Shown here piece by piece: positions 3,323-45,750 of a DNA stretch of 45,850 nucleotides (within the stretch, counting starts at the first letter, position 1; the number at the start of each line of letters is the position of its first letter). Origin of the DNA: a bacterium (GTDB lineage Bacteria > Zixibacteria > MSB-5A5 > WJJR01); the NCBI GenBank assembly GCA_021813505.1, contig JAKAKI010000073.1, positions 1 to 45,850 on the forward strand, in the 5' to 3' direction. The notes beneath the pieces were generated by a model. The model saw nothing but the letters and a program-made list of their open reading frames with translations, had not been told where the DNA came from and searched no databases. The position numbers and the translations under genes are program-made.

Positions 3323-3742
3323 ATGTTGAGAATCCCGGTCATAATCATAGCGGCGGCAGCCCTCACGACTGGATTGAGCAACCCAGCGGCCGCCATTGAT
3401 GTGAAGGCAAAGTCCGATTCGGGCCAGACCGATTCAGTGCGCGAGACCAAGTCACTTCCGGTGCGGTCGTTCCAGACCGCTCCGGCGAAGCAAGAGTCGG
3501 GGCTGCTGGACAAGCTCAAACGTCAAGTCCGCGAAGTGAAACCCGCCACGGGGCAACAGCAGTACGACGGATTCATCGATGCCGACCATGACGGCGTTGA
3601 TGACCGTATCGCCAAGAAAGCCAAAGTCCAGGAAGAAACCGAGAAGACCGACAAGGTCGAGAAGGCCAAGCCTTCGACTGCGACTCCAGAGCCGAAGCTC
3701 AAATCGAAAAAAGCCGCCAAACCCGAAGAACCACCGAGGTGA
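3323..3742 (+). CDS. Small exported Lys/Glu-rich protein with a DxDxDGxDD motif
   Basis: 139 residues from the ATG at 3323. This start gives a signal peptide (MLRIPVIIIAAAALTTG... cleaved near AAA-ID); the frame is open back to 3146 but those residues do not look like protein. There is no clear Shine-Dalgarno. Residues ~83-92 read DADHDGVDDR, a calcium-binding pattern like thrombospondin type 3 repeats. The C-terminal third is Lys/Glu/Pro-rich. Its last 15 codons have a diverged duplicate at 4087-4131. Function unknown. Confidence 0.6.
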   Translation: MLRIPVIIIAAAALTTGLSNPAAAIDVKAKSDSGQTDSVRETKSLPVRSFQTAPAKQESGLLDKLKRQVREVKPATGQQQYDGFIDADHDGVDDRIAKKAKVQEETEKTDKVEKAKPSTATPEPKLKSKKAAKPEEPPR

Positions 3743-3750
3743 TTTAGCAG

Positions 3751-3881
3751 GGTGTCACGGACAAACCTTCTCCGTCTTTTTGGAGAAGGTTTGTCCGTGT
3801 CTTTTCCGCGTCACTCCATCAAAAAACACGGACAAGGAGAGTCGAGCCAAAAGCCGCTCGACTCTCCTTGTCCGTGGCACC
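3751..3881. repeat. Bipartite back-to-back hairpin element, copy 1
   Basis: Two perfect hairpins inside near-perfect outer ends (GGTGTCACGGAC at the left, GTCCGTGGCACC at the right). Hairpin 1: 18-bp stem 3756-3773 / 3782-3799, loop GTCTTTTT, then TCTTTT. Hairpin 2: 20-bp stem 3827-3846 / 3857-3876, loop CCAAAAGCCG; on the minus strand it is followed by TTTTTT. So each hairpin is an intrinsic-terminator shape for one direction, with both T-runs in the central linker. It lies between the convergent genes at 3323-3742 and 4193-5455, where a two-way terminator would be useful. A second copy is at 45303-45437. Confidence 0.85.
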
Positions 3882-3888
3882 CTACGTG

Positions 3889-3930
3889 TTGCGGGTTACC
3901 GTCGGGCCGCCGGCGCGCACGGTGAGCAGG
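3889..3930. repeat. Duplicated 3' end of the MFS gene
   Basis: Matches 4197-4238, the last 14 codons of the MFS gene, at 38 of 42 positions, in the same orientation. It is detached from any reading frame of its own and lies beyond the gene's stop codon. Together with the fragment at 4087-4131 it shows that this intergenic stretch was duplicated. Confidence 0.75.
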
Positions 3931-3936
3931 CCGTAG

Positions 3937-3995
3937 GGCGGGTGCCTCGCCGCGGATACACCACCCTTACAAACACGTGCTGCGAGGCACCCGCC
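3937..3995. repeat. REP palindrome (TAGGGC-type end)
   Basis: 14-bp perfect arms GGCGGGTGCCTCGC (3937-3950) and its complement (3982-3995) around a 31-base centre. It begins with GTAGGGC, like the stop-codon repeats at 4133 and 40672. Confidence 0.7.
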
Positions 3996-4024
3996 TTGCC
4001 GGTCCCGCGCGCGTGCCAGTGGAC

Positions 4025-4086: not shown

Positions 4087-4131
4087 CTCAAATCGAAGAA
4101 AGCCGCAGAATTTGAAGAGCCATCAAGGTAA
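4087..4131 (+). pseudogene. Duplicated 3' end of the 3323-3742 gene
   Basis: Fifteen codons reading LKSKKAAEFEEPSR-stop, against LKSKKAAKPEEPPR-stop at the end of the 3323-3742 gene. About 80% of bases match and many differences fall at third codon positions, so both ends were once under coding constraint. There is no start or upstream coding sequence, since a palindrome (4025-4078) lies directly in front. Probably the remnant of a tandem paralogue or of a segmental duplication. Confidence 0.6.
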
Positions 4132-4132
4132 T

Positions 4133-4196
4133 GTAGGGTGGGCTCCGCCCACCTCTTTTGTCCACGCAGCGAGAAGGTGGGCAGAGCCCACCCTAC
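4133..4196. repeat. TAGGG-type palindrome pair at the MFS stop codon
   Basis: Two hairpins, GGTGGGCTCCGCCCACC (4137-4153) and GGTGGGCAGAGCCCACC (4176-4192), form together a larger inverted repeat with ends GTAGGG / CCCTAC. Its right-hand CTA (4193-4195) is the TAG stop of the leftward MFS gene. Same family as 40787-40850. Confidence 0.8.
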
Positions 4197-5455
4197 TTGC
4201 GGATCACGGTCGGACCGCCGGCGCGCACGGTGAGCAGGATTGCCGCGCCCGCTACGAAGAAGACGAGGATCGAGAGAGCGGCCAGACGGAGATTGCCTCC
4301 GGTCAGGCTGGCGACTTCGCCGAAGACCAGCGGGCCGAGTATGGCGGCGCTCTTGCCGCAAAGTGAATAGAAACCGAAGAACTCCCCCTCGCGACCGGTG
4401 GGGATTAATGTCGCCATGAAGGCGCGGCTGGCGGCCTGGATCGCGCCGAGTCCGGTTCCGGCGAGCGCCGCCACGATAAAGAAGGTCGTCTTGCTGGTGA
4501 CGAAGTACACGAGGGTCACCACGACGATCCATTGGGCGAGCATGGTGAGGACCACAAACTTCGGGCCCCTGGTGTCGGTCGGCCGCGCCCAAAGACTCGC
4601 GCCGACGAGCGCGGAGAGCTGGACACACATGTAGACCCAGATCAAATCGGTCATCGCAAAGCCGAGCACCTGGCGCGCGAAAATCGCTGAGAAAAAGATC
4701 ACGGTATTGACGCCATCGTCGAAGAGCAGGAATGCCAGTAGAAACCGCCGCATGGGTTTAATGCGGATGATCTCGCGTGCGGTTTGCCACGTCCCCTGCC
4801 AGCCGGCGCGCGCCGCCGAAATGACCGAGTGGGTGGTCGGACGGTCCGCCGGAAGCCACATGAATGCCGGAAGCGAGAAGGCCAGAAAGAGAATCGCCAC
4901 GAGAAGAAACGCGGGACCGAAGTGCCCGGCGGTGATCAGCGGCAGCGCCGCGAACAAGCCGACGAACGAGCCGGCGTACCCGATGGCGAAGCCCAAACCG
5001 GAGAGCCGGCCTTGCCGGTCGGGTGGCGACAGCTCCGGCATGTACGCGTTGTAAAAGACCATCGCACCTTCGAATCCGATCCCGGCCAGTGCGCTCAAGA
5101 TGAACCCGTAGATGACCATCCCCGGCGCCACAGTTGCCAGAAGAGCGGTCACCGCAACTGAGACCACTGTGTAGGCAATCAGGAGGCGCTTGCGCCAGCC
5201 CGCCAGATCGGCAATCGCACCGCCGAACGGCGAGGTAATGGCCACGAAGAACATAGTGAGAGACACCGCGCGCCCCCACCACAACGCTCCCTCTCCCTTG
5301 CTCCCGCCAACGATCACATCGGCGTAGTACGCCGCCCAGATGGTTGCCGGAATGACGGCGGCGTAAACGGAGTTGGCGAAATCATAGAGACACCACGAGG
5401 CGACGGCCTTCGGGTTTGGCCAGTGGCGGAAGAAGGACAAAGGACGAAGGGACAT
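4193..5455 (-). CDS. MFS transporter, UMF1 / Atg22-like
   Basis: 420 residues, about the usual size for the family, with some 12 hydrophobic segments. The N-terminal WCLYDFANSVYAAVIPA is characteristic of the UMF1 (Atg22-like) group of the major facilitator superfamily. A charged loop (GWRKRLLIAY) follows TM3 as in MFS proteins. Substrate unknown; relatives are annotated as general effluxers. The stop codon TAG is part of a TAGGG palindrome, and the last 14 codons are duplicated at 3889-3930. Convergent with 3323-3742; followed downstream by the repeat mosaic. The RBS is weak. Confidence 0.85.
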   Translation of the reverse strand: MSLRPLSFFRHWPNPKAVASWCLYDFANSVYAAVIPATIWAAYYADVIVGGSKGEGALWWGRAVSLTMFFVAITSPFGGAIADLAGWRKRLLIAYTVVSVAVTALLATVAPGMVIYGFILSALAGIGFEGAMVFYNAYMPELSPPDRQGRLSGLGFAIGYAGSFVGLFAALPLITAGHFGPAFLLVAILFLAFSLPAFMWLPADRPTTHSVISAARAGWQGTWQTAREIIRIKPMRRFLLAFLLFDDGVNTVIFFSAIFARQVLGFAMTDLIWVYMCVQLSALVGASLWARPTDTRGPKFVVLTMLAQWIVVVTLVYFVTSKTTFFIVAALAGTGLGAIQAASRAFMATLIPTGREGEFFGFYSLCGKSAAILGPLVFGEVASLTGGNLRLAALSILVFFVAGAAILLTVRAGGPTVIRK

Positions 5456-45037: not shown

Positions 45038-45123
45038 GCCGGAGTGGTGAAATTGGCAGACGCGCCGGACTCAAAATCCGGTGGGACCTAAATCCCGTGT
45101 CGGTTCGATTCCGACCTCCGGCA
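45038..45123 (+). tRNA. tRNA-Leu, anticodon CAA
   Basis: 86 bases. Acceptor stem GCCGGAG (45038-45044) pairs with CTCCGGC (45116-45122), then discriminator A. The anticodon loop is CTCAAAA, giving CAA for codon UUG. The long variable arm (GGGACCTAAATCCC) is typical of class II tRNA-Leu, and the T loop TTCGATT is canonical. CCA is not encoded. Confidence 0.96.
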
Positions 45124-45302
45124 GAGTACGGGCCGCAACATTTCGATTCAACCATTCTCGGAACTTCCCCTGGATTAGGGGCATTTGCGTGAAGTAGAAC
45201 CATGTCGTGATTTGGGATCTATCGGCTGCGATTCGCTTGATCGATCGGTCTCCTGGGCTTGTTGAAAGACCGCGCTCGATCTACTCGACAACCCAATCAT
45301 TC

Positions 45303-45437
45303 GGCGCCACGGACCAGGAAGACCAAGCGGCTTTTCTGCTCGACCTTCCTGGTCCGTGTCTTTTTTCTGACTGTGAGAAGAAGACACGGGCAAGCGGATT
45401 CTCCAAAGAGCCGAAGAATCTGCTTGTCCGTGGCACC
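45303..45437. repeat. Bipartite back-to-back hairpin element, copy 2
   Basis: Same plan as 3751-3881. Ends GGCGCCACGGAC and GTCCGTGGCACC. Hairpin 1: perfect 14-bp stem 45308-45321 / 45345-45358, loop with CGGCTTTT, then TCTTTTTTC. Hairpin 2: 18-bp stem 45385-45402 / 45415-45432, of which two are G-T pairs, loop CCAAAGAGCCGA. The inner stem sequences are unrelated to copy 1. It lies 180 bases after the tRNA, so hairpin 1 could end the tRNA transcript. Confidence 0.82.
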
Positions 45438-45750
45438 CCGCTGGCGGACTGGGCTATTCACCAGCCCCCCGGTCGCGGTCGCCACTGTTCCACTGCAGCT
45501 TTTCAGAAGCTCACTCGCACGCCTTTCGGCGGCGAAAATACCCCGCCGCCCATTCTCGATTTGGCCGAGTTTCGCGAATGACCGATCCGTCAGTTCACCG
45601 ATCCTGCGCCCTGCTCCACGGTGCCTCACTCTCGACCGCTTGGGACAGGCCTGCCGGTGACATCAGGCATCGGTTGTCAGCGAGCGTGTGACCCGTTTCT
45701 CACAGCCATCGCGTTGCCTACACATGAATCATAGACACCACATTGAGGTA
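45438..45750. other. 313 bases without a supported gene
   Basis: Open frames here run through the repeat element and have no RBS or protein-like pattern. Apart from the promoter at 45751 nothing is seen. Confidence 0.5.

Follow-up and report, generated by a model that had tools for sequence, protein, structure and literature searches.

REPINs and REP doublets (BIMEs) are mobilized by RAYT (TnpAREP) transposases and consist of an inverted pair of REP-type palindromes with the feet outside and a short spacer between them. The foot of this class is GTAG or GTRG, and GTGG feet have been reported for some RAYT groups (PMC6006769). In E. coli, the upper stem or the loop can be swapped, although not removed, TnpAREP depends on the bases of the lower stem, and the enzyme cleaves at CT (PMC8266576). 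Di Nocera et al. (2013; PMC3733652) described REP heterodimers with a different stem and/or loop and complementary stem changes within families, and showed that the REP dimers of Halothiobacillus neapolitanus lie within palindromes of the form GGGaaGCTT-GAAAaACC...GGTaTTTCgAAGC-gCCC. In this study, we analyzed a window of 45,850 nucleotides (the whole of the stretch presented above), in which a sequence-only reading had noticed two copies of a two-hairpin element and had known of no repeat class with such a definition. REP doublets or REPINs accompanied by a RAYT gene form a class of just this kind, and REP heterodimers that differ in stem and loop are on record (PMC3733652). We consider it likely that the element is a REPIN-like family of REP doublets, with the RAYT encoded on contig C87 as its likely mobilizer and with an upper stem that needs only to pair.

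Results

The region from 3751 to 3881 folds as a pair of long hairpins side by side (-88.4 kcal/mol; z score of -11.9 against shuffled sequences), and a second two-hairpin copy is present at 45303 to 45437 (z score of -7.4), both as previously noticed. Copy 1 (3751 to 3881, minus strand) is reversed with respect to the family consensus and is without the outer TGTTGAAAAAC ends described below. It consists of hairpin B (3756 to 3799, minus strand; 2 bp shorter on both arms, as in four other copies), a spacer at 3800 to 3826, and hairpin A (3827 to 3876, minus strand). T-rich tails point inward into this spacer (TCTTTT on the plus strand and TTTTTT on the minus strand), and its hairpin B side carries a candidate CT cleavage dinucleotide, a role suggested by the E. 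coli work (PMC8266576). Copy 2 (45303 to 45437, plus strand) has the consensus orientation, with hairpin A at 45308 to 45358 and hairpin B at 45385 to 45432, both on the plus strand. It also has the left and right outer ends of a larger composite unit on the plus strand, at 45260 to 45270 (TGTTGAAAGAC) and at 45453 to 45463 (GCTATTCACCA, with three mismatches to GTTTTTCAACA). The common frame, the T-rich inner tails, and the mutually complementary loops were found in both window copies, and the second hairpin is indeed the inverted form of the first. The loops are complementary because one REP unit is present twice, in inverted orientation, with each loop reading GGCTYTT from its own foot; kissing loops were ruled out as a separate line of evidence, since such complementarity is automatic for inverted units with the same loop. 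An Rfam scan of the window at the gathering threshold returned only a tRNA, with no known RNA family at the two-hairpin element.

The surroundings of the two copies have features of their own. A stretch that takes in the 3' ends of a convergent ORF pair occurs twice in the window (3698 to 3747 and 3889 to 3930 against 4087 to 4136 and 4197 to 4238, with identities of 78% and 90%), and the same site in each duplicate holds a different REP-type doublet, one of the CACGGACAA family and the other GTAGGGTGGGC. Adjoining copy 1, at 3933 to 3999 and at 4133 to 4196, are two inverted pairs of GTAG-footed hairpins that belong to other families, and the intergenic region of copy 1 is thus common to several REP families. 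On the side of copy 2, a tRNA-Leu(caa) gene lies at 45038 to 45123, directly after which similarity to the congener stops, as at a tRNA-associated rearrangement border.

A search of the source genome (3.89 Mb, 95 contigs) with the end motif TTGTCCGTGNCACC, allowing up to one mismatch, gave 104 matches, compared with 5 for a control in which the pattern was read backwards. The matches mostly form inverted pairs 128 to 141 bp apart and amount to about 45 elements, and there are more in one congener. Thirty-nine full copies from the source genome were aligned, 24 in one orientation and 15 in the other; once oriented, their mean pairwise identity is 85% (range, 67 to 98%), and their consensus reads GGTGC-hairpin A-TCTTT...AAAGA-hairpin B-GCACC, with a length of about 131 to 141 bp. 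Copy 1, whose closest family member is locus L064, runs opposite to this consensus, which copy 2 follows. The inner stems of the two loci had looked unrelated because hairpin B of copy 1 was set against hairpin A of copy 2, that is, elements in opposite orientations were compared. After reverse-complementing of copy 1, the two are 76% identical over their full length, A aligning with A and B with B. Nor are the stems freely changing, as had been thought, given that the oriented copies are conserved in sequence overall. The main claim of novelty is explained by orientation together with a known class, and we note as a caution that elements in opposite orientations can mimic stems that have changed while their pairing was kept.

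By crude ORF calls, in which uncurated ORFs also cross several copies, 34 of the 39 copies have an ORF of at least 80 amino acids on either side. A search of viral contigs for the hairpin pattern gave no match. Three loci (L034, L051, and L075) have a single hairpin, and for two of them the orthologue in congener G001 has two; these single-hairpin copies may reflect deletion between direct CACGGACAAG repeats of A and B. At another locus (L066, 1845 to 2524), hairpin A is split by an element that is bounded by GCGAGATTGCTTCG-type repeats and contains a short ORF, GIY-YIG nuclease-like by eye.

Across the 39 oriented copies, 96.9% of stem cells are paired, and changes on both sides of a pair were found in 15 of the 43 pairs (44 cells). 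Shuffled alignments had 4.7 such pairs on average, and none of 500 reached the observed 15. These shuffles ignore the relatedness of the copies, which is accounted for in a slid-partner control; that control gave 2 to 8 pairs with double changes, again fewer than the 15 observed. Nearly all double changes are in the upper stems (columns 18 to 23 and 98 to 107, with pair 13/49 as the sole exception), and, counting from the foot, 14 of the 15 pairs stand at position 10 or higher. Almost nothing varies in the lower stem, CACGGACAA/TTGTCCGTG; the feet (GGTGC) and the loops (GGCTYTT) are also conserved, in keeping with the earlier description of a conserved base and loop. Within one element, the upper stems of hairpins A and B differ from each other, and in five copies, including window copy 1, each arm of hairpin B has lost 2 bp. 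The upper-stem covariation is thus real but moderate: stems do change with pairing kept, to a lesser degree than had been claimed and in copies whose sequence is mostly conserved.

In one case, the paired end motifs span 800 bp (locus L073, 3439 to 4238) and enclose an HUH/Y1 transposase gene, the 3' end of which runs into the right hairpin. The left hairpin is minimal (CACGGACAAACTTGTTTGTCCGTG), and the right one has an upper stem, GAATGACGGCAC/GTGCCGTCATTC, unlike that of A or B. The encoded protein scores 99.7 bits against NCBIfam NF047646 (REP-associated tyrosine transposase equivalog; cut-off, 80), passes Pfam Y1_Tnp, and contains the motifs EHVH and EYIHYNPV. Its alignment to E. coli TnpAREP (4er8) is weak (E value of 0.0011) and extends across the HUH and Tyr115 regions, with Tyr146 aligned to the catalytic Tyr115. 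There are 11 Y1 genes in the source genome, and only the C87 RAYT is flanked by this hairpin pair. Congener G001 has the same RAYT between the same neighbor genes and with the same hairpins; with one copy per genome in a shared position, the gene behaves as a single-copy, vertically inherited (domesticated) RAYT.

Intact hairpins number 24 in G001 and were found in none of the other genomes among the 58 related ones searched. A RAYT at least 88% identical is present in only 2 of these 58 genomes (the next best being at most 48% identical), and they are the same 2 that have intact hairpins; the nearest named record with a RAYT of this 88% type is a Candidatus Zixiibacteriota MAG. RAYT relatives with 49 to 59% identity, from Desulfobacterales, Brocadiaceae, and Phycisphaerae, have GGTG[GC]CACGGACAA hairpins on their flanks, and three Phycisphaerae genomes contain 47 to 87 hairpins of this kind. 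The upper parts of the hairpins flanking these relatives differ and are often minimal, the foot is GGTGG in several, and the T tails beside the same hairpin are not conserved.

Many copies of the element share further flanks, the left one ending in TGTTGAAAAAC and the right one in GTTTTTCAACA. The left end was recognized in 19 copies, the right end in 22, and at least one of them in 29 of the 39, against control rates of 4% and 2%; both were unrecognizable in the other 10, window copy 1 included, and in the RAYT-bearing element. The outermost flanks pair better than swapped ones as a trend only (mean, -20.9 versus -18.0; standard deviation, 1.1). At locus L033, G001 has an empty site with an unbroken small hairpin, TTTCCCGCTTTCGCGGGAA; in the source genome, the whole larger unit splits this small hairpin and has CTTTCG on both sides. 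Insertion of the larger unit is thereby shown for a single site, but RAYT-made movement of the bare doublet is not. A polymorphic insertion with exact GGTGC...GCACC borders was sought in the comparison of the source genome with G001, and none was found. At L031, L032, L037, L038, and L041, the orthologous G001 sites without the element are replaced or diverged, and a clean border is present only at L033. No orthologous flank of window copy 1 was found in the congener, synteny at copy 2 breaks off after the tRNA, and the two flanks of G001 locus L128 match different contigs of the source genome. At two pairs of orthologous sites (G001 L256 with G000 L041, and G001 L257 with G000 L037), different contents stand inside similar TGTTGAA-type outer ends. 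A second dispersed family (L109 to L120, about 110 to 130 bp each) has the same TGTTGAAAAAC ends around other contents (GGGCAGACAAGAGTGTCTGCCCC...GCGGACAAGAGTGTCCGCG) and is apparently likewise placed within small hairpins.

Discussion

In the REPIN-like reading that we favor, each palindrome would fold when single-stranded, as on the lagging strand, and the RAYT would bind the GGTGC foot together with the conserved lower stem. It would then cut close to the tail's conserved CT dinucleotide, where TCT follows the hairpin in most copies, and copy the doublet into a new intergenic place. Because pairing alone would be required of the upper stem, this part would drift through compensatory change. 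By analogy, conservation of the lower stem alongside covariation in the upper stem matches the measurements on E. coli TnpAREP and is their evolutionary counterpart (PMC8266576). Several observations go against this reading: the foot is GGTGC rather than GTAG, an insertion with exact doublet borders did not turn up, and 29 of the 39 copies lie within the larger TGTTGAAAAAC-ended unit. This is also the unit that the only clean empty site concerns, with CTTTCG on both sides; target duplications are not a known product of Y1 enzymes.

The moving unit could instead be a composite of about 210 bp bounded by TGTTGAAAAAC/GTTTTTCAACA: a DDE-type MITE that enters existing hairpins and carries the doublet as passenger cargo. 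The frequency of the outer ends relative to the controls, the fixed relative orientation of the doublet and its conserved flanks, the site that is empty in the congener with CTTTCG at both sides of the insertion, and the second element family with the same ends and a different cargo are all in line with such a unit. However, about a quarter of the copies (10 of 39) and the RAYT-bearing element itself are without these ends, the hairpins also accompany RAYT relatives in other phyla, and a partial search identified no transposase with these ends. We therefore regard the composite as a possible but unlikely account of the whole family, while a larger TGTTGAAAAAC-ended unit is possibly a second route by which the doublet is mobilized.

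The covariation that we attribute to the demands of a RAYT could have other sources. If the element were a bidirectional intrinsic terminator under selection, covariation would reflect termination. A terminator scan picks out hairpin A and hairpin B of copy 1 on opposite strands, each being a GC-rich hairpin followed by a U-tract; copy 1 lies between convergent ORFs, and the T-rich tails are conserved within the family. Yet only 11 of the 34 classifiable copies lie between convergent ORFs and 20 between co-directional ones (crude ORF calls), the tails are not kept beside the same hairpin in RAYT relatives, and dispersal combined with absence from most relatives is the pattern of a mobile repeat. 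Selection for termination thus seems rather improbable to us. What holds of the two-way terminator proposed earlier is its shape, the T-rich tails of both hairpins pointing into the spacer, and a REPIN-like element might plausibly terminate transcription in both directions as a side effect. A mutational origin would make the compensatory changes the outcome of hairpin-templated correction of imperfect palindromes and not of selection for pairing. Long near-perfect palindromes are a known substrate of such correction, and the loss of 2 bp from both arms in five copies would suit it. The lower stem of the same palindrome, however, is almost without double changes, which suggests selection on its sequence. 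Correction within the upper stem remains compatible with this pattern, although we think it improbable that correction accounts for the compensatory changes.

Returning to the REPIN-like reading, we offer one extension of it as speculation that we ourselves consider doubtful. The RAYT subfamily of Zixibacteria, Planctomycetota, and Desulfobacterota may read only the fixed foot and 9 to 10 bp of lower stem (GGTG[GC]CACGGACAA), so that any paired upper stem passes. One enzyme could then sustain an obligate, asymmetric pair of two REP types whose upper stems are unrelated, and a second mobile element would have captured this pair as cargo.

With this analysis, a phylum that has no cultured model gains a REPIN-like family whose foot is not GTAG and whose core is common to RAYT loci of other phyla. 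Like REPINs, the element is an inverted palindrome pair present in tens of scattered copies in both orientations, apparently mostly intergenic by crude ORF calls, with a single-copy RAYT at an orthologous position that has the same palindromes on its flanks, and with a conserved lower stem, a tolerant upper stem, and a CT dinucleotide in the tail. Unlike REPINs, it has the foot GGTGC (GGTGG in relatives) and not GTAG or GTRG, and because of this foot we call it REPIN-like and not a GTAG-class REPIN. Its stems, at 20 to 23 bp, are longer than those of most listed REPs, its two partners differ in the upper stem, and most copies are inside the larger TGTTGAAAAAC-ended unit. The outer ends of this unit are similar to the long palindromes around the H. 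neapolitanus dimers, whose CGTC-tagged repeats are without a RAYT, whereas the repeat described here flanks one (PMC3733652). As in TIRYTs and TIRtrons, the inverted repeats that enclose a RAYT-like gene have further copies scattered over the genome; TIRYT repeats have GGGGWSAS in common for the most part and do not form hairpins (PMC3733652), whereas each end here is a self-complementary hairpin.
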